Below are positions 25,240-36,013 of a DNA stretch of 64,000 nucleotides, piece by piece (position 1 is the stretch's first letter; each line of letters opens with the position of its first letter). Both the position numbers and the translations under genes were made by a program. The notes beneath the pieces were generated by a model that was not told the origin of the DNA, made no database searches, and saw nothing but the letters and a program-made list of their open reading frames with translations. The stretch covers positions 2,055,654-2,119,653 of the forward strand of contig NZ_CP007201.1 in NCBI RefSeq assembly GCF_000568815.1, written 5' to 3'. The DNA is from Sulfurospirillum multivorans DSM 12446. GTDB lineage: Bacteria > Campylobacterota > Campylobacteria > Campylobacterales > Sulfurospirillaceae.

Positions 25240-26157
25240 ATGAACATCACCCCTGAAGCACTTTTTGAAGCACGTCGCCATTTTTTAAAACTAGGAGCGG
25301 GTGCACTGGTGAGTAGCACTGCTATTTCACAGCTTTTAGCCGAAACGCCCTTAGATATGAGCCTCACCTACACACCCGATCCCAACCCACTCAAACTCTC
25401 GCCCAACACCCTTGAGCAGATCACCAACTATGTCAATTTTTACGAATTTTCAACCGACAAAACCGCCCCCGTCAAACTTTCCCAAAAGATGAAAACAGAT
25501 CCGTGGAGTGTTGGCTTTTTCGGCGACATCAAAACCGAACAGATGCTTAGAGTGGATGAGCTCATCGTCAAATTTGGACTAGAGGAGCGGATTTACCGTT
25601 TTCGCTGTGTCGAAGGCTGGTCGATGGTCGTTCCGTGGATCGGCTTTCCACTGTACAAACTGCTCGACTACCTAGAGCCAAACAGCAAAGCCAAATACGT
25701 CAAGTTCACGACACGCCACGACCCTAGCCTCTTTCCCGACCAAAGCAAAGGCATTTTTGCTTCCATTCCACATCCCTACGTTGAAGGCTTGCGCATGGAC
25801 GAGGCACGCAACCCACTCACGTTCATCGCTGTGGGCATGTACGGCAAACGCCTGCTTCCGCAAAATGGTGCACCGATTCGTCTTGTCGTGCCATGGAAAT
25901 ACGGCTTTAAGTCCATCAAATCACTCGATCTCATTGAATGCGTGGAAACCGAACCGCTTAACACATGGCAAGCCATTGACGCTAAAGAGTACGGCTTTTA
26001 CGCCAATGTTAATCCTGCCGTTGACCACCCAAGATGGACACAATCCAAAGAGCGATTGCTCGGAAAACTGACCAAACAAGCCACCCTGCCCTTTAACGGT
26101 TACGAAAAAGAGGTCGCCTCACTTTACGCGGGAATGGACTTAAGGAAATTCTTTTGA
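25240..26157 (+). CDS. msrP: Protein-methionine-sulfoxide reductase, molybdenum catalytic subunit
   Basis: 305 residues. A Tat signal [12 protein letters not shown] (about 12-23) sends the folded molybdopterin protein to the periplasm. The molybdenum-ligand Cys is in [20 protein letters not shown]. MsrP repairs oxidised methionines in periplasmic proteins with electrons from MsrQ. Coupled to msrQ by a TTGA overlap. Confidence 0.95.
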
Positions 26158-26699
26158 AAGCCCTCCTCGTCCTTCTTGCGCTGCTTCCACTGGGGCTTGC
26201 ATACTACAAACTCGAAAGCGCTATCGACCCAATTAAAATGCTCTACAACACAACGGGCATTGGGGCGATAACGCTACTTTTACTTTCGCTTGTACCCTCT
26301 TCTTGTAAACGAGTTTGTGGACAAAACTTCCTTCGTTATCGCAAAACCATCGGGCTTTTGAGCTTTGCCTACGCCTTTTTACATGTAAGCGTTTTTGTCG
26401 CACTCGATAGCGAATTTGACTTCATCACCATCTTTGAAAAAAGTCTCAAAAAACCGTTCATCTATATCGGTACTATTGCGTTCATCATCCTTCTTTTCAT
26501 GGCGCTCACCTCGTTTAAAAAACTCTTTGCCAAGCTTTCAAAGTACCATAAAGCGGTCTACCTCGCTTTGGCACTTGCACTGCTTCACAGCTTCTGGGCG
26601 CAAAAAGTGGCTGGGATGTTTGAGTATAGCGTGGTCGCCGTTGGGTTGGTGCTTTTAGGGGAGCGTGTTTGGGCGTGGCAAAATAAAAAACCCCTATAA
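26154..26699 (+). CDS. msrQ: Protein-methionine-sulfoxide reductase haem-binding subunit
   Basis: 181 residues with five to six membrane helices of the ferric-reductase-like fold. Candidate haem ligand His residues lie in [10 protein letters not shown] and [10 protein letters not shown]. The start is a TTG overlapping the msrP stop, with AAGGAAA 5 nt upstream. MsrQ passes electrons from the membrane to MsrP. A palindrome at 26379 encodes LHV, and its His is one of the candidate haem ligands. Confidence 0.92.
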
Positions 26700-26970
26700 G
26701 AGGTAACCTTTTATCATTACTTTAATGACCTAATACTATGCAACAAAACTACCAATCAATTCCACACCTCTATAACCAACTCTTTTCTGCATATAACCTA
26801 TAGACGTATCCATTCACCAACTCTTTAAATTATTTATACTTTTTTTATACTTTTCTTATAAATTTTCATAATTAGTTTTGTATATAAAGGAGTTAATAAT
26901 GAAAAATTTATATTGCATATCCTGAAGTTAACATTGCCTATATATCTGTAATTAACTACAAGGAGGGATT
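26700..26970 (+). promoter_or_regulatory. Upstream region of nrfHA with promoter elements and an 8-codon leader ORF
   Basis: The 271-bp gap is strongly AT-rich. It holds an inverted repeat TCATTA-N3-TAATGA at 26717-26731 (approximate), several TATA-like stretches at 26835-26890, and a mini-ORF at 26899-26925 (ATG AAA ... TGA, MKNLYCIS) with a strong AAAGGAG ribosome site 6 nt before its ATG. The mini-ORF may be a leader peptide or a gene remnant. No clear TTGAT-N4-ATCAA FNR site was found. Confidence 0.45.
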
Positions 26971-27498
26971 GTGGATTTATCGAAAATTATGAAGATAGGT
27001 ACGCTTAGTGTGGCATGTATTGGTATTGTTTTGATCGCTTATACAATACACATATCCAATGCACTCAGCTATCTTACTAACGATCCAAAAGCATGTATTA
27101 ACTGTCATGTAATGAATACGCATTATGCAACATGGCAACATAGTTCCCACGCAAGAAATGCTACGTGTGCGGATTGTCATTTGCCTAGAAATAATTTTGT
27201 TGATAAGTATATTGCAAAAGCAAAAGATGGATTACACCATGCTTTTGCGTTTACATTTAATCTATATACCGATGAAATTAAAATTACAAAGGACGGTGCA
27301 GATCGAGTCCAAAAGAATTGCATCGAGTGTCATCCAAGACAATCTGAAACGGTTGTTCATAATAATGACCTTAATCATCAAAATATGAGCGAAAAAGGGG
27401 ACTACTGTTGGAGGTGCCATAGAGATGTACCTCATGGCTTGGTAAGAGGTTTAAATTCTGCACCTAATAATTTAGGTGTCAAAGAAGCTATTAAATAG
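26971..27498 (+). CDS. nrfH: Cytochrome c nitrite reductase membrane subunit
   Basis: 175 residues starting at GTG with AAGGAGG 5 nt before. One N-terminal membrane anchor (about 10-30) and four c-type haem motifs: CINCH, CADCH, CIECH and CWRCH, as in NapC/NirT-family NrfH. It takes electrons from menaquinol and passes them to NrfA in the periplasm. 10 bp separate it from nrfA. Codon use is more AT-rich than in the flanking msr genes. Confidence 0.96.
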   Translation: MDLSKIMKIGTLSVACIGIVLIAYTIHISNALSYLTNDPKACINCHVMNTHYATWQHSSHARNATCADCHLPRNNFVDKYIAKAKDGLHHAFAFTFNLYTDEIKITKDGADRVQKNCIECHPRQSETVVHNNDLNHQNMSEKGDYCWRCHRDVPHGLVRGLNSAPNNLGVKEAIK

Positions 27499-27508
27499 AG
27501 GAGGATTT

Positions 27509-29053
27509 ATGCGAAAGTACATAGTTTTTATTTCAATCATCTTTGCTGTTTTTTCATTAGGGTTACTAGCAAGTAGTATTGAAAAAAAAGAGGCAGAGAA
27601 GAAATCTTTAAATCATGTAAGTGGTGTACCAACAGAACCGGGCAAAAGTTCTGATTGGAAACCATTTTATCCAAGACAGTACGAAACTTGGAAAAAGACA
27701 AGTGAAAAAAAAGAGTACGTGGATATGTTCGATGTTAAGCCTAAGGTTGCTATTCTTAGAGCAGGAGAAGATCCAACGGGTGCATGGTGGGGTCATGGTA
27801 GAGGACACTGGTATTCTAATATTGATATGATGTTTAATATTATTACAGGTGCACCAAACAATCCTCAAGACTTAGAAGAGTGGCCACCAGCACGATGTTT
27901 GTCATGTCACTCAGGCGATACAATAAGACTAATGGAGAGAGATGGCAAAATGGAGTTTTACTCAAAACCACTCTCTTATTATGCACCTGAAGCACAAAAT
28001 CCAATTGGATGTCAAGATTGTCATGATCCAAAAACCGCAGAGCTAAGTATGAAACGGGATTATTTGGATAAAGGGCTTCTTTCAGCAGGAATGAAAGATT
28101 TTAATAGCTCTACTCATCAAGAAAAACGCTCTTTACTCTGTGCCCAATGTCACGTTCTTTCATACACAGGTAAAGAAGAATGGACAGATAAACAAGGTAA
28201 TAAACAGCTTGCTAGAACGATTGTTCTTCCTTGGGCAAAAGGACTTTCAATGGAAGAGACTGAGGCATATTATGATGATCCTAAAAACTTCCCAGATGGA
28301 AAACCTGCTGTTCATATTGAAAATACATTTTCAAAAGCACCAACAATCTTAGCAGAACATCCAGATTATGAGTTGTACCAAAAAGGAACCCATGCTAAAA
28401 ACAATGTTGCGTGTGCAGATTGTCATTTACCTTATACACAAGAAGGTGGTGTTAAGTTCTCACATCATAAAATTGGCAGTCCTCTTGAGAATATGGATAA
28501 AACCTGTTTAACATGCCATAAAGGTAAAGAGCAAGAGTTAAAAAGCATTGTCAAAGATAAGAAAGGAAAAGTGACAAAACTAACCCATACAGGACTTGAA
28601 AATCTTTCAAAAGCGCACTTAGAAGCTGCTAAAGCATGGGAAGTTGGCGCTAAAGACAAAGAGATGGAGCCAATTCTAAAACTTATTAGAAAAGCTCAAT
28701 GGAGATGGACATATGTTGATTCAAGTTTTGGAGCGTATATGCATGCAACAGATGAATCGTTGAGAATTCTTGCTGAAGCGAATGACTATGCACAACAAGC
28801 ACGAATTGAGCTTGTTAAAGTTCTTTTAAATCATGGGGTTAAAAATTATGTAGCACCTGATTTCAAAACAAAAGAAGAAGTATTCAAATTTATGAATGTA
28901 CCTGAGAGAGAAGCTCTAATCAAAGAAAAATGTGATTGGATCAAATCAACAGGTAAAAAATGGCTAAAAGATGCTAAAGCAAATGGAACTATCAGTGAAG
29001 ATGTTGAGAAAAAAGACGATGTCTTTACATGGTTTGACCATATGTGTAAATAA
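27509..29053 (+). CDS. nrfA: Ammonia-forming cytochrome c nitrite reductase, all-CXXCH type
   Basis: 514 residues from ATG at 27509 (GAGGAGG before it; the frame opens earlier inside nrfH). Signal peptide at residues 1-22. Five haem motifs: CLSCH (130-134), CQDCH, CAQCH, CADCH and CLTCH. In most NrfA proteins the first, catalytic haem is bound by CXXCK with lysine as ligand; here it is CXXCH, as in Campylobacter-type NrfA. Other landmarks fit NrfA: GRGHWYS before haem 1, HPDYELYQKGTHAKNNVACADCHLP around haem 4. It reduces nitrite to ammonium by six electrons, fed by NrfH. Confidence 0.93.
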   Translation: MRKYIVFISIIFAVFSLGLLASSIEKKEAEKKSLNHVSGVPTEPGKSSDWKPFYPRQYETWKKTSEKKEYVDMFDVKPKVAILRAGEDPTGAWWGHGRGHWYSNIDMMFNIITGAPNNPQDLEEWPPARCLSCHSGDTIRLMERDGKMEFYSKPLSYYAPEAQNPIGCQDCHDPKTAELSMKRDYLDKGLLSAGMKDFNSSTHQEKRSLLCAQCHVLSYTGKEEWTDKQGNKQLARTIVLPWAKGLSMEETEAYYDDPKNFPDGKPAVHIENTFSKAPTILAEHPDYELYQKGTHAKNNVACADCHLPYTQEGGVKFSHHKIGSPLENMDKTCLTCHKGKEQELKSIVKDKKGKVTKLTHTGLENLSKAHLEAAKAWEVGAKDKEMEPILKLIRKAQWRWTYVDSSFGAYMHATDESLRILAEANDYAQQARIELVKVLLNHGVKNYVAPDFKTKEEVFKFMNVPEREALIKEKCDWIKSTGKKWLKDAKANGTISEDVEKKDDVFTWFDHMCK

Positions 29054-29069
29054 GCATTAAATCTATAAA

Positions 29070-29098
29070 TTCCACAGAGAAAAGTTTTCTCTGTGGAA
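29070..29098. terminator. Perfect hairpin after nrfA
   Basis: A 29-nt odd palindrome with 14-nt arms, TTCCACAGAGAAAA and its complement around a single G, begins 17 nt after the nrfA stop. Followed by A-rich rather than T-rich sequence on the plus strand, so it may stabilise the nrfHA mRNA end or attenuate read-through into the sensor gene rather than act as a classic terminator. Confidence 0.55.
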
Positions 29099-29122
29099 AA
29101 ATACATCGTTAAGAAAGAAGAG

Positions 29123-31141
29123 ATGATACAAACAAAAAAAGCTCATATTATTACCATCACGGTATGTATCATATTATTTTTTTATTTATCGCTCATTTGC
29201 ATCAATTATAGCTCCAATAAACACGTGATGGAACGCCTCACCCAAATCAATCAGATCAATATGGTCAAATTTTTCAAACAACGTGTTGATGAATGGCTTT
29301 TATTTAAGAAGAAGATTGTTTCATCTACGGCTGTTTCTCTTGAAGACTTGGATACAGCTATGGATTACAAAGAGATCAAAAAAATCTTAGACAATGCAAG
29401 TTCGATAGGTAATTTTGACAGTGTCTCTATCGGGTATGACAATAATCTTTTTATTTTAAATACAGACGAAGAGATTCCAAAAGACTACGTTGCTACAAAA
29501 CGCGATTGGTACACTATGGCATTACAAGCTGGCGAGACAACCGTAACACTACCCTATCAAGATGCGTTTGTAGATAAAAAAGTACTCTCTGTCGTTGCTC
29601 CTTTAAAACATAAAAAGACAGATATGACAGCAGTCGTTTCAGCTGATTTGAATTTAAACACAATTCAACAAGAGATTCTTAACATTAACGAACGACTCCA
29701 AGGATTTGCTTTTTTAATTACACAAGATGGTAGTTTGATCGTAAGCCCCAAAGGTTTTGATGCAGCACCATGTGAAGAGTGCCAACCCGCTATTGAAACT
29801 ATTATGAAAAATAAAGACAAAATTGAACTTCAAACCTATATCTATAAAGACCAAAAATATATCATTTTTTATGAGCCTCTCAAAAATAGTGATTGGATTT
29901 TTGCGATGACACTCAATGAAAATCAGATTTTTGCAGAATTGAATCAATCGTTTTTCCACAACATGATTCTAACCATTGTCTTTACTGTATTTGGAATCAT
30001 AAGTTTTTATTTTTTTATATTTCTCACAAAAAAAACAACTTCTTATAAACGCTTATTAGATTGGTTTGCGCATAGTCCAACGCAAGCTGTTGCTATTGTT
30101 GATGTACACTATCGTATTCTTTTTTTAAATTATCTTTTCCAAGACCTTATTCCATTAACTCGAGGTAAAATTTTTGATGTTTCATTTGACTTTAATCAAA
30201 AAGCACAAGATTAAATCATACTTTTTAATAGCATCACAAAGAGTTTAGAAGAGGTTTTAACCACATCAAAAAGCCTTAAAAATGAAAGAGTATTGTTGCC
30301 TATTTCGTCACGATGCTTTTTGATTCAATATACCCCGATTATCGTCAACTCATCCCAAATCGAGGGATGTATTATTACGATCAATGACATCACTCAAGAA
30401 TACCTTTTAGAGCAGCAGCATAAAACCCATGAGCAAATCATGCTTCAACACAGCAAAATTGCTTCTATGGGAGAGATGTTAGTCGCAATTACACATCAAT
30501 GGAGACAGCCTCTTTCCGCACTTCTAATTTTAATAGGAATGATTAAACTCAATGTGCAAAATTCGGATCATTCGGATGCCGTTGTAGAGAATAAAATCGA
30601 AGAAATCATCAAGATTATTCACTTTATGGAACAAACACTTCATTCATTTAAAGTGTTCTATCAGCCAAATAATGAGCAAAAGAGAGTCGATCTTGCAGAA
30701 GTATTAGATGAAGTTGTGTTAATCATGAAGCCAATTGCGCAAATTAACACCATAGAGTTATCATTTAAATATGCAAAAAATCTTGATTACACCGTTGTGC
30801 TGTATCCTAATTACTTAAAGCAAATTATCATTAACTTAGTTTCTAACGCAAAAGATGCCCTTGGTGAAAAGAGTGATCTTACTCAAAATAGTTATATTAA
30901 GATTTTGCTGGATCAAAATGAGCAGTGCTATGTGATTAGGGTTGAAGATAATGGTATGGGCATTCAAAAAGAATTTATAAGCAAACTCTTTTGCGAAATG
31001 CAAACCACTAAAGGTGAAAATGGAACGGGGAATGGATTGTATTTGTGTAAGCTTTTGGTAGAGAATAAATTAAATGGTACAATTGAGATAGTTTCATTTG
31101 CAAATCCTACAATTTTTGAAGTCACCTTGAAAAAGGAGTGA
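29123..31141 (+). pseudogene. Sensor histidine kinase interrupted by an in-frame TAA
   Basis: The ATG at 29123 has AAGAAAGAAGAG before it; an earlier GTG at 29093 lies in the hairpin. The frame encodes a membrane segment (about 5-25), a Cache-type periplasmic sensor (about 30-280), a second membrane helix, then the start of a PAS domain. A TAA at 30212-30214 stops it at codon 364. The same frame reads on without another stop to 31141, giving the rest of the PAS, the H-box SMGEMLVAITHQWRQPLSAL, NLVSNAKDAL, VEDNGMGI and NGTGNGLYL. It is therefore one gene with one nonsense codon, not a frameshift. A TTG at 30293 might start a soluble kinase fragment. Next to nrfHA, it may have sensed nitrate or nitrite. 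Confidence 0.88.
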
Positions 31142-31144
31142 ATC

Positions 31145-31837
31145 ATGAATAAAGATGTATTGAAGCTTTTAAAACAACTCAATGTACTTTTAGTGGAAGA
31201 TGATCCTTTTTTAGGGCAAACCATTTTTGATGCTTTGAACCCATACTGTGGACACGTAACATTGGATTGTGATGGTGAAGCAGGTTTGGATAGCTTTTTT
31301 CAAGGCACTTTCAATGTAGTCATTACAGACATTAATCTACCTAAAAAAACAGGAATTTCTCTTGCTGGGGAGATTCGACGAAGCAATAAAGAGATTATTA
31401 TCATCATCTTAACAGCGCATGATACAGAGCACAATATTCATTCTGCAATTGACATTGGTGTTTTTGCTTTTTTACATAAACCATTTCAACTCGAACAACT
31501 TTATAATACATTGTTGATGTCGCTCAGTAAGATTCAAGCAGATCATAAACTGCTAAATTTGGGCAAAAACCACATCTACAATGTTAAAACAAAAGAGATT
31601 TTTTGTGGTGATGAAATGATACGTTTAACACGAACAGAATCCCTTCTTTTACAAATATTGGTAAGTAATATGGGGCAAGTAATTACGTTTGATAGCATAG
31701 AAAGAAGTGTTTGGTATGAGAAACAAGCAACACCTGATACCATTCGAATGTATATCAATAAGTTAAGAGCAAAGTTATATTATGAGCTCATAGAAAATGT
31801 TCAAGGCTACGGATATAAACTTGTACCAAACATATAA
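31145..31837 (+). CDS. OmpR-type response regulator
   Basis: 230 residues. The receiver has LLVEDDPF, the phosphorylated Asp in VVITDINLPKK, ILTAHD and FLHKPF; the winged-helix output ends NVQGYGYKLVP. It starts 3 bp after the stop of the interrupted kinase gene and is intact. It is probably the partner of that kinase and may control nrfHA; this is inferred from adjacency only. Confidence 0.93.
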   Translation: MNKDVLKLLKQLNVLLVEDDPFLGQTIFDALNPYCGHVTLDCDGEAGLDSFFQGTFNVVITDINLPKKTGISLAGEIRRSNKEIIIIILTAHDTEHNIHSAIDIGVFAFLHKPFQLEQLYNTLLMSLSKIQADHKLLNLGKNHIYNVKTKEIFCGDEMIRLTRTESLLLQILVSNMGQVITFDSIERSVWYEKQATPDTIRMYINKLRAKLYYELIENVQGYGYKLVPNI

Positions 31838-31905
31838 TATACTAGGTGCTTTTTCGCTTTTGAAAAAGCTTTTGATTGTCATAAAATTTAATTAAAAGAG
31901 AGTAT

Positions 31906-32505
31906 ATGAACGCATTTATTTCAGGTTTTAGTCTCGGTTTTTCACTTATCTTAGCCATAGGGGCGCAAAATGCTTTTGTGCTGAAGCAAGGCATTAAAAA
32001 AGAGCATGTCTTTGTCATCTGTTTTGTCTGCGCACTCTCTGATGCTATCTTAATTTTCGCTGGTGTTTCGGGGTTTGGGTATTTGGTGGAGCAGTTTCCC
32101 TCTTTGCAAACGGTGGCGAAGTATGGTGGTTTTGCCTTTTTGTTTGTCTATGGTTTGAAAAGTTTTTACTCTGCGTGGAGCATGTCGCATGAGCTGAGTC
32201 CGCTCGACCAACCTACAACGTCACTGACAAAAACCATTCTGCTTGTACTCGCCTTTACGTGGCTGAATCCGCATGTGTATCTTGATACCGTCATCTTACT
32301 GGGCTCCGTTTCGACCAAGTTTGGCTCCCTTTCACCGCTGTTTGGCTTTGGGGCGATGACTTCATCTTTCGTGTTTTTCTTCTCTTTGGGTTATGGTGCT
32401 AGGATTTTAACGCCTATTTTTCAAAAGCCAATTTCATGGAAGATTTTGGAAGTGCTTATTGGCATCGTGATGCTCTCTTTAGCATTTATGCTACTCGGAT
32501 TGTAA
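31906..32505 (+). CDS. argO: LysE/ArgO-type amino-acid exporter
   Basis: 199 residues with six hydrophobic segments. The N-terminus FSLGFSLILAIGAQNAFVLKQGIKKEHVF and the stretch FTWLNPHVYLDTVILLG are typical of the LysE/ArgO branch that exports arginine or lysine. The symbol is by family resemblance. It converges with a chemoreceptor gene; a hairpin at 32512-32537 separates them. Confidence 0.88.
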   Translation: MNAFISGFSLGFSLILAIGAQNAFVLKQGIKKEHVFVICFVCALSDAILIFAGVSGFGYLVEQFPSLQTVAKYGGFAFLFVYGLKSFYSAWSMSHELSPLDQPTTSLTKTILLVLAFTWLNPHVYLDTVILLGSVSTKFGSLSPLFGFGAMTSSFVFFFSLGYGARILTPIFQKPISWKILEVLIGIVMLSLAFMLLGL

Positions 32506-32546: not shown

Positions 32547-34157
32547 TTACGACTTAAATTGGTTCAATTTACCATTAAGATTTTCAGCCAATTTAGAGAG
32601 ATGATCCGCCGCAGAGGCGATCTCTTCAACACTTCTGGCATTTTCACTCGTCAGAGCGTTTATGTTCGTGACCATTGTGACGATTCTATCCGTGTCGCTA
32701 GCGATGCGAATCGAATTTGCCGCACTCGTAGTGACAGAGACAACACTTTCTTGCATGACCGTTGTGGTGCCAAGAATGGTCGATTCCACACCTGTTGAGA
32801 CATCGGAAAGGCGTTGAATGTTTTTCGCATTTCTGCCCATTTGATCGGAAGAATCAACGATGGACTGGACAATAACGTTAATAGTCGCATTGATCTCAGT
32901 GAGTGAATTTTGCGTCCGCTCTGCAAGTTTTCGCACTTCATCGGCAACAACGGCAAATCCTCGTCCATGTTCCCCTGCTCGTGCGGCTTCGATGGCGGCA
33001 TTGAGAGCAAGAAGATTGGTTTGATCGGCAATGTCTGAGATAACCGTCAAGATCTGTTTTACCTGCTCGGCATCATGACTCATCTGCTCTAGTTTTTGAG
33101 CCAAAGCTGTTTCGGCTTCACTGGCAATGCCTACTTCATTACGAAGAGTGATGACTTCATTTTTAGCATTATCCAGTCTTTGTCCTGCATCGGTGATGCT
33201 TTTTTTCATCTGTTCTGAAAGCGTTGCCGTCTCTTGTACAAACGTTTTAATCGTTGCAATCTCTTGAATTGTATTTTCGACAATCGTCGTACTTTTTTCA
33301 GCATTGCGCCCTATTTGCATACTGGTTGAACTAAGCTCATGCGACACGGAAGCATTTTCAGTCGATGATTGTTTGGCATCGACAATCGTCTGCTCTAAGG
33401 TTGTCACTAAAGCATTAAAACTCTCAACAATTTCTTTAAATTCGTTCTTTTTTTCATAGGTAATTCTAAATGTCAGTATTTTATTCTGTACAAAAGAGAC
33501 CATGCTATCGCGGATAAGATGAACACCTTGAAGGATATTGCGACGAATGATGATGCTCGTAATGATGACTAAAGCGATCACCAATAAGGAAAGCCCTATC
33601 ATAAGCGCACTGGCTGTATCTTTGGTCTGAGATGCTTCAAATGCCATTTTCTCGGACAACTCTTTATTGTAATTCATATGACCACGAAGGGTATCGCCTA
33701 TTGTTGCTAAAAACGGTCGTTTAGCAAAAGCAAGCGTACGTGCTTCCTCTTTTTGATTGGCTTTCGAGAGTTCTAAAAATTGATCTAACAAGGCATTGTA
33801 CTGTTTTAAGATTTCTTTGTCTTTTTCAAAAAGCTCTTTATCTTTGGCATCTGATATTAAATTGACATAGGACGCCACTTTGTTGTCCAATTTTTCTCTA
33901 ATTTCTTTAATCATCGATGCAGATTCGTCCATTGATTTTTGATCCGTAGCGGAGAGAAACTCAAAAGCATACACGCGTAAATAATAATAATCTTCCATGA
34001 TCTCGTTCATAATCAAAATACTTGGCACAACATTCACATTGCCATAATTTGTATCCGTATACACCTGATCCATCTTGGAAATACTGATGGCAAAAACAGA
34101 ACAAATGCCCAAAATTGCAATGCTCAACATCACGATAAGCTGTCTTGAAATACTCAT
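32547..34157 (-). CDS. Methyl-accepting chemotaxis protein (tandem copy 1)
   Basis: 536 residues: membrane segment (about 7-27), four-helix-bundle-like periplasmic domain (about 28-190), second membrane segment (about 190-208), signalling domain with the usual [19 protein letters not shown] tip. The ligand half differs from the tandem neighbour, but from about residue 320 to the end the two proteins differ by about one residue. Upstream 34186-34223 is a promoter-like block shared with copy 2. Confidence 0.95.
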
Positions 34158-34185
34158 AATAACTCCTTTTCTTTACGATGCACGC

Positions 34186-34223
34186 ATCATAACGCTCGTG
34201 TGTTGTAAATGCGTTGTATTTGA
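34186..34223 (-). promoter_or_regulatory. Promoter-like block of chemoreceptor copy 1
   Basis: Read on the minus strand: CGCATTTACAACACA, a short spacer and CGTTATGAT, whose TATGAT resembles a -10 box. The same block recurs at 36042-36079 ahead of copy 2 with few changes, so promoter and gene were duplicated together. Two TACATGTA palindromes (34243 and 34269) lie just upstream. Confidence 0.5.
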
Positions 34224-34344
34224 GAAAAGACGCTCATGTTCGTTTACATGTAAATATTTTAGAGTACTTACATGTACCTAGGTATTACCATTTTACGTGG
34301 ACAATTTCATGGAAGATGGCATACTCTTTGATTTGAAAAAAAGA

Positions 34345-34370
34345 GGGGATAAAGTTTTCACTTTATCCCC
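34345..34370 (-). terminator. Intrinsic terminator of chemoreceptor copy 2
   Basis: Perfect 10-bp stem GGGGATAAAG / CTTTATCCCC with a 6-nt loop. On the minus strand it is followed by TCTTTTTTTC, a good T-run, 33 nt after the stop of the gene at 34403. Confidence 0.8.
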
Positions 34371-34402
34371 AGAAAAACAAGGAGTTTAGAGGGAAAATAC
34401 CG

Positions 34403-36013
34403 TTACGACTTAAATTGGTTCAATTTACCATTAAGATTTTCAGCCAATTTAGAGAGATGATCCGCCGCAGAGGCGATCTCTTCAACACTTCTGGCATTCT
34501 CACTCGTTAGAGCGTTTATGTTCGTGACCATTGTGACGATTCTATCTGTATCACTGGCGATGCGAATCGAGTTTGCTGCACTGGTGGTGACAGAGACAAC
34601 ACTTTCTTGCATCACGGTTGTAGTCCCAAGAATGGTCGATTCCACACCTGTTGAGACATCGGAAAGGCGTTGAATGTTTTTCGCATTTCTGCCCATCTGC
34701 TCGGATGAATCAACAATAGACTGGACGATAACGTTAATCGTTGCATTGATCTCGGTCAGTGAATTTTGAGTTCGCTCGGCTAGTTTTCGCACTTCATCGG
34801 CAACAACGGCAAATCCACGTCCATGTTCCCCTGCTCGTGCGGCTTCAATGGCGGCATTAAGCGCTAGCAAATTCGTTTGATCAGCAATATCAGAGATAAC
34901 CGTCAAAATCTGTTTCACTTGCTCAGCGTCGTGACTCATCTGCTCTAGTTTTTGAGCCAAAGCTGTTTCGGCTTCACTTGCGATGCCCACTTCATTGCGA
35001 AGGGTAATGACCTCATTTTTAGCGTTATCCAGTTTTTGACCTGCATCCGTGATACTTTTTTTCATCAATTCTGAAAGTGCTGCGGTCTCTTGTACAAAAG
35101 TTTTAATCGTCGCGATCTCTTGAATCGTATTTTCAACGATGGTCGTACTTTTCTCGGCATTTCGACCGATTTGCATACTCGTTGTACTTAATTCATGTGA
35201 CACAGAGGCATTTTCGCTCGAAGAGTGCTTGGCATCGACAATAGTATGCTCTAAGGTCGTCACTAGAGCGTTAAAGCTATCGGAGATCTTTTTAAGCTCA
35301 TTTTTCTTGTCATAGGTGATTCTAAAGCTAAGTGCTTTGTTTTGCACAAAGGAGACCATCCCATCGCTAATAATTTTAACACCTTTGATAATATTGTGTC
35401 GAATGGAAAGACCTAACAATAGAAGCGTTATCATCGAAGCCATAGAGACAAAGATCATTATATAAATAGCCTTTTGTTTTTCATCCATCGCATGATCGGC
35501 TTCATTTTTTGCAAGTTCAAAATTGTATTTCATATGCTCTTCAAAGACATGGGTTAAGTTTTGAATAATCAGTTTATTACTACTTACCATTGCATTAATT
35601 TCAGTTTGTTTCTGCTCTCGTGACAAGATTGTTAATGTTTCTAACAAACTAAAATAGCGCTCAACTGCCTCGTTATCTTTCGAAAAAAATACCTTATCTT
35701 GATCATTTGAAAACAAAAGTTCATACGCTTTCAAACTCTCTTTAAGCGATATTTTTGCTTTCTCAATATTTCCCTCGACTCGTTCCCACTCTTTCTGATC
35801 GGATTGAGATATGTGCTCCCACACATACAATCTTAAACGATACGCCTCTTGCATGGCATTATTCAACACAAATACGCTCGGAAGAGAATTGACATTACTG
35901 TAATTTGTCTCCTCAAATACTGTATTCATTTTTATAAAACTAATTCCAAAAATCGTAAATGTTGCAAGAATAGCAACCGTAAGCATGACTAAAAGTTGTT
36001 TTGAAATATTCAT
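34403..36013 (-). CDS. Methyl-accepting chemotaxis protein (tandem copy 2)
   Basis: 536 residues, exactly the same length and layout as copy 1 at 32547. The N-terminal ligand region has diverged (for example [17 protein letters not shown] against [17 protein letters not shown]), while the last 200 or so residues are almost identical, also at DNA level into the sequence just past the stop. It probably detects a different ligand. No C-terminal tether peptide. Confidence 0.95.

Follow-up and report, generated by a model that had tools for sequence, protein, structure and literature searches.

The locus and its genes

The window analysed here is a stretch of 64,000 nucleotides (positions 2055654-2119653) from the closed 3,175,729-bp genome of Sulfurospirillum multivorans. 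Within it, a cassette with the order nrfH-nrfA-kinase-regulator fills the interval between two resident genes, and all features described below lie on the forward strand. The left flank is a gene that we take to be yedZ-like (26154..26699), and the right flank is a lysE-type amino acid exporter gene (31906..32505) scoring 189.7 bits with TIGR00948, below the cut-off of 213.65. The first cassette gene, nrfH (26971..27498; GC3 0.27), encodes the four-heme quinol dehydrogenase of the NrfHA complex and passes the TIGR03153 cut-off (161.5 vs 134.2 bits). It is followed by nrfA (27509..29053), the second copy of this gene in the genome, whose product is a pentaheme cytochrome c nitrite reductase that exceeds the cut-off of Cytochrom_C552 (386.7 vs 24.1 bits) and falls below that of NCBIfam NF008339 (425.8 vs 595). 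Its five heme motifs (CLSCH, CQDCH, CAQCH, CADCH and CLTCH) are all of the CXXCH type, with CLSCH at heme 1 and the usual, though non-universal, CXXCK absent. The available text of one report describes an all-CXXCH NrfA that is known and working in Campylobacter jejuni (PMC12285233). A cassette lacking nrfI would suit such an enzyme. No phage link emerged for nrfH or lysE from a PHROGs scan, which matched neither gene.

In the gap that separates nrfA from the kinase gene lies an RNA hairpin (29070..29098) with a 13-pair stem and a folding energy of -18.2 kcal/mol (z -5.0), which may set expression of NrfHA apart from that of the kinase. Hairpins of differing sequence occur in the same gap in three other cassette-bearing genomes, here given their handles G031 (z -3.95), G046 (z -2.75) and G211, where the hairpin is weak (z -1.56). 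The cassette ends with a response regulator gene of the OmpR type (31145..31837), in which a Pfam scan found both Response_reg and Trans_reg_C, bearing out the original prediction that the partner regulator is intact. A candidate terminator after the regulator (31848-31869) is not claimed, since three sites were found against 2.8 expected in shuffled sequence.

An in-frame stop in the sensor kinase gene

Between nrfA and the regulator, the frame 29123-31141 reads by translation and Pfam scan as a single sensor-kinase gene comprising dCache_1, a PAS-like region and a kinase core. Translation of its 673 codons gives one internal stop, the TAA at 30212..30214 (codon 364), and otherwise only the terminal stop, in agreement with the earlier reading that the frame is open but for this codon and that no shift is needed. 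The 5' part (29123..30214) encodes 363 residues with two membrane helices, the dCache_1 periplasmic sensor (60.4 bits, above the cut-off of 45) and the first portion of the PAS-like region. Past the TAA, the 3' part (30215..31141) continues in the same frame with the rest of that region and the kinase core, where HATPase_c is matched at 60.5 bits (cut-off 26.4) and the kinase boxes are present; we take these to be the phospho-acceptor His in THQWRQP and the N and G boxes. In the sequence as given, the TAA separates sensor and kinase core, which do not share one polypeptide.

A frameshift in place of a stop is ruled out, as both halves share one frame. So is a chance open frame after the TAA: base composition gives a probability of 2.8e-11 for the 308 open codons 3' of the stop, and the other five frames of that stretch contain 36-71 stops each. 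The PAS_10 match in the window kinase is weak (21.3 bits, below the cut-off of 22.1), but the PAS_10 domain of a relative (G014) spans residues 317-429, around the stop column, and the placement of the stop within a PAS domain therefore holds by alignment. The original description of the interrupted kinase as a neighbour of nrfHA is likewise right.

We searched for broken kinases elsewhere in the genome as a baseline and rejected this: among 64 HATPase_c matches, a stop was flagged in two, each time as the last residue of the match and thus a natural gene end.

Intact relatives of the kinase

The kinase family as defined here has 18 members, namely 16 from 397 genomes of the class at E <= 1e-100 (the next match stands at 7e-59) plus two from outside that set, G031 and G007; all members but G239 were aligned. 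Comparison with orthologues, which the original prediction had proposed as a check, finds both halves of the window kinase matching one uninterrupted 690-aa frame in the draft genome of Sulfurospirillum sp. UBA6810 (G031), at 61-65% identity. At about 63% overall, this is the nearest relative found. A search of genome contigs for further relatives gave none with a single-protein query, and an alignment query returned only the UBA6810 contig. In a tree of kinase and regulator, the window pairs with G031 (support 0.955) and G046 with G211 (0.994).

A first alignment had a sense residue at the stop column in seven of eight relatives, the eighth (G046) lacking the region. In the larger alignment every one of the 16 relatives shows either a sense residue (11) or a gap (5). 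The kinases of G046 and G211 are shorter: their membrane helix leads into the kinase core with no PAS-like region in between. Only two of the 18 frames are interrupted, that of the window and that of G094, which shifts frame in the same PAS-like region. The latter is a TorA-linked kinase (L097:6582-8557) from a genome whose assembly is a single contig.

No second lesion was found in the kinase frame, either by translation or from conservation on the two sides of the stop. Identity to G031 amounts to 221 of 363 residues 5' of the stop and 199 of 307 residues 3' of it, and the window kinase departs from columns that are invariant in the other sequences at 1 of 20 positions before the stop and 1 of 35 after it, as does the intact G031 kinase. 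A lack of decay is what one would expect if the break were young, if the stop were a sequencing error or if the 3' part were still in use.

Probable insertion of the cassette between yedZ and lysE

The setting of the stop in an inserted cassette was not part of the original prediction and is new here. We compared 14 congeneric stretches around yedZ, drawn from 23 other species genomes of the genus, and at a threshold of E 1e-5 none of them matched any of the four cassette genes. Both yedZ and lysE were seen in 12 of these stretches, and in the nearest by DNA identity (G019, 91%) their matches lie 75 bp apart. Third-position GC content is 0.23-0.35 in the cassette genes and 0.48-0.55 in the flanking genes. 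The same four genes are clustered in G031, where lysE follows, in G211, where lysE lies slightly further on, and in G046, where no lysE was found beside the cassette in the stretch examined.

The right-hand joint can be placed from the sequence around the lysE start codon. The 68 bp upstream of lysE agree with another congener, G003, at 51 of 66 aligned positions (the maximum of 200 shuffles being 46), with G019 at shuffle level (36/58) and with G031 in between (42/55, highest shuffle 44). The first 150 positions of lysE itself are nearer to G019 (140/150) than to G003 (112/150), so the joint lies at the lysE start. This suggests recombination with a donor carrying regulator and lysE together. 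In G003, a draft genome, all that remains is the final 71 residues of the regulator (85% identity), next to lysE at a different location; this genome has thus lost the cassette or one related to it. No repeats pairing both cassette ends were found.

What lies at the yedZ-lysE junction varies across 12 species (window 26700-31905 and loci L054-L067), with 71 to ~4,500 bp between the two matches, and genes appear to be exchanged often at this junction.

What the sensor may detect

The original prediction considered a loss of nitrate or nitrite sensing, and this part finds no support, given a dCache_1 sensor with residues of the amino-acid type and a family whose members mostly adjoin a gene resembling S/N-oxide reductases. 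Kinases of the NarX/NarQ plan have a nitrate-sensor input domain where the window kinase has Cache, and the Pfam scan found no such domain in the window kinase. The residues Y121, R126, W128, Y129, Y144 and D173 of PctA have equivalents in Y122, R127, W129, Y130, Y145 and D175, and the spacing is that of the PctA amino-acid motif except for one extra residue before the Asp. Of six further dCache-type stretches in this genome, three show the spaced pattern as well; the motif was therefore rejected as a discriminating sign and indicates a ligand class only. An amino-acid-like compound is the more likely ligand on these residues than nitrate or nitrite, for which no sign was found in this analysis.

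The neighbours of 17 of the 18 family members were examined. Four kinases adjoin nrfHA (window, G031, G046 and G211) and 13 a molybdopterin enzyme, whose likeness to TorA/BisC was tested by tblastn or genome search in 12 cases and judged from the protein start only in G033. The enzyme of G014 passes the cut-offs of TIGR00509 and NF011682 (TorA) and fails that of TIGR02164, and in G211 a TorA-like gene lies ~2 kb past the nrf-linked kinase-regulator pair. With the intact G031 homologue as a stand-in for the window kinase, the TorS models score below their cut-offs (TIGR02956, 62 vs 676.5 bits; NF008543, 42.4 vs 982).

The periplasmic sensor domain also carries a CxxC pair (C217/C220; window 29771-29782), present in all four nrf-linked kinases and in five TorA-linked kinases of Sulfurospirillum and absent from the other eight of the 17 aligned. 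The pair may serve in redox chemistry or metal binding. A heme in this domain was considered and rejected, since the pair occurs without CXXCH in the window kinase; heme-Cache proteins, as characterised in the available text of one study, are a single-Cache family defined by CXXCH (PMC12889525).

Explaining the interruption

We think it probable that a redundant nrfHA cassette was acquired laterally and that its kinase gene has suffered a nonsense mutation. The four genes (nrfH, nrfA, sensor kinase and response regulator) would have entered between yedZ and lysE by recombination, the donor's lysE serving as the right-hand flank, and a single nonsense mutation would later have interrupted the kinase gene within the PAS-like region. 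The direction of transfer is presumed, and a less probable account of the distribution is an ancestral cassette that was shared and then lost from the other species. At an identity of only ~63% in the kinase, G031 does not stand out as the donor. Under lateral acquisition followed by mutation, which we prefer, the gene would yield a 363-aa membrane sensor stub and no kinase unless translation restarts, and the intact regulator would be left without its partner. The kinase-regulator switch is probably dead, and the cassette nrfHA would then be expressed basally or be controlled in some other way. The mutation itself we infer to be real, recent and null.

A consensus error in the genome, with the kinase whole, would also leave a lone stop, no other lesion and two equally conserved halves, as found here. 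Substitution errors are rare in finished genomes, however, and G094 is interrupted in its PAS-like region as well, while G003 has lost most of such a cassette; real loss is thus plausible, and an error seems unlikely. Readthrough or recoding of the TAA could give some full-length kinase, and the frame does remain open after it, but TAA is an efficient stop and all 11 relatives that have a residue at this column carry a sense codon, which makes this reading extremely improbable.

The original prediction also raised a split kinase, whose soluble half would restart at TTG 30293. Restart at this codon or at TTG 30296 would give a soluble kinase phosphorylating the regulator without sensor input. 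The fragment exists as described: the frame from TTG 30293 (30293..31141) runs to the terminal stop, encodes 282 aa and includes the complete kinase core and its boxes. There is no decay 3' of the stop, and the nrf-linked kinases of G046 and G211 do without the PAS-like region, which can therefore be spared. The start signals are where the proposal falls short. Pairing with the anti-Shine-Dalgarno sequence is weak at both codons (-1.7 kcal/mol at 30293 and -2.4 at 30296, against a background median of -0.9 and a lower quartile of -2.7), and nrfH, nrfA and the regulator reach -8.2 to -12.0 kcal/mol; yet the kinase's own start scores just -1.4, so this measure is not decisive on restart. The restart also lies 79 bases beyond the stop, which is far for translational re-initiation. 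Moreover, 11 of 16 aligned relatives keep a residue at the stop column, and a freestanding core is seen only in the interrupted G094. Taken together, a functioning split kinase is distinctly unlikely. We regard as very doubtful the further idea that the stop falls at a seam which the family tolerates, with the 3' part alone acting as a signal-independent kinase that locks the regulator; if it were true, an inducible respiratory cassette would have turned constitutive after lateral transfer.

Redundancy and comparison with known systems

A second nrfA lies at G000:C1:865355-866809 and is 44% identical to that of the cassette. In the accessible text of a proteome study, SMUL_0889-0892 (NrfHAIJ) is the ammonifying nitrite reductase operon and a further nrf set goes unmentioned (PMC4585668). 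The gene at 865355-866809 matches this published main nrfHAIJ, and the cassette nrfHA is not the organism's main nitrite reductase. With the other set covering nitrite reduction, loss of the kinase would be tolerated, and such redundancy would make sensor loss cheap. The likely function of the broken switch is corrected accordingly, away from control of the main nitrite reductase. Our literature search, whose reach did not extend to the 2014 S. multivorans genome paper, found no paper on this locus, and PMC6974571 contained none of the residue numbers sought in it.

The closest counterpart is the cassette of Sulfurospirillum sp. UBA6810 (G031), which has the same order nrfH-nrfA-kinase-regulator-lysE and shares 83% identity in NrfA, 71% in NrfH, 68% in the regulator and 61-65% in the kinase. 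It differs from the window in its uninterrupted kinase and in the other genes on its left flank. The TorA-linked pairs of G014 and others, found in Sulfurospirillum and other Campylobacterales, have a homologous kinase and regulator with a shared dCache_1-PAS-HATPase plan, but adjoin a gene for a TorA/BisC-type S/N-oxide reductase where the window pair adjoins nrfHA. One kinase-regulator family thus stands beside two unrelated respiratory enzymes (NrfHA and S/N-oxide reductase), so that the way in which such sensors switch targets becomes a testable question.

Losing one half of a respiratory two-component system has a parallel in the genus. As described in the available text of one report, transposases disrupt TCS2 of the organohalide region both in S. 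multivorans strain N and in strain JPD-1, and they have repeatedly hit this other respiratory system in Sulfurospirillum (PMC7755780). There, on that account, the regulator gene was hit by a transposase, whereas here the kinase gene of another system was hit by a stop. The kinase break is a minor and fairly ordinary case of gene loss. It would be of interest as a clear-cut instance of sensor loss from an acquired respiratory cassette whose enzyme and regulator are still undamaged, in a bacterium that is apparently a model for organohalide respiration.

Two further features were seen in passing. The genome has two reductive-dehalogenase genes ~5.4 kb apart, and the window contains two tandem chemoreceptor genes (32547-36013), both encoding 536 aa; their C-terminal halves are almost the same and their sensor halves differ.
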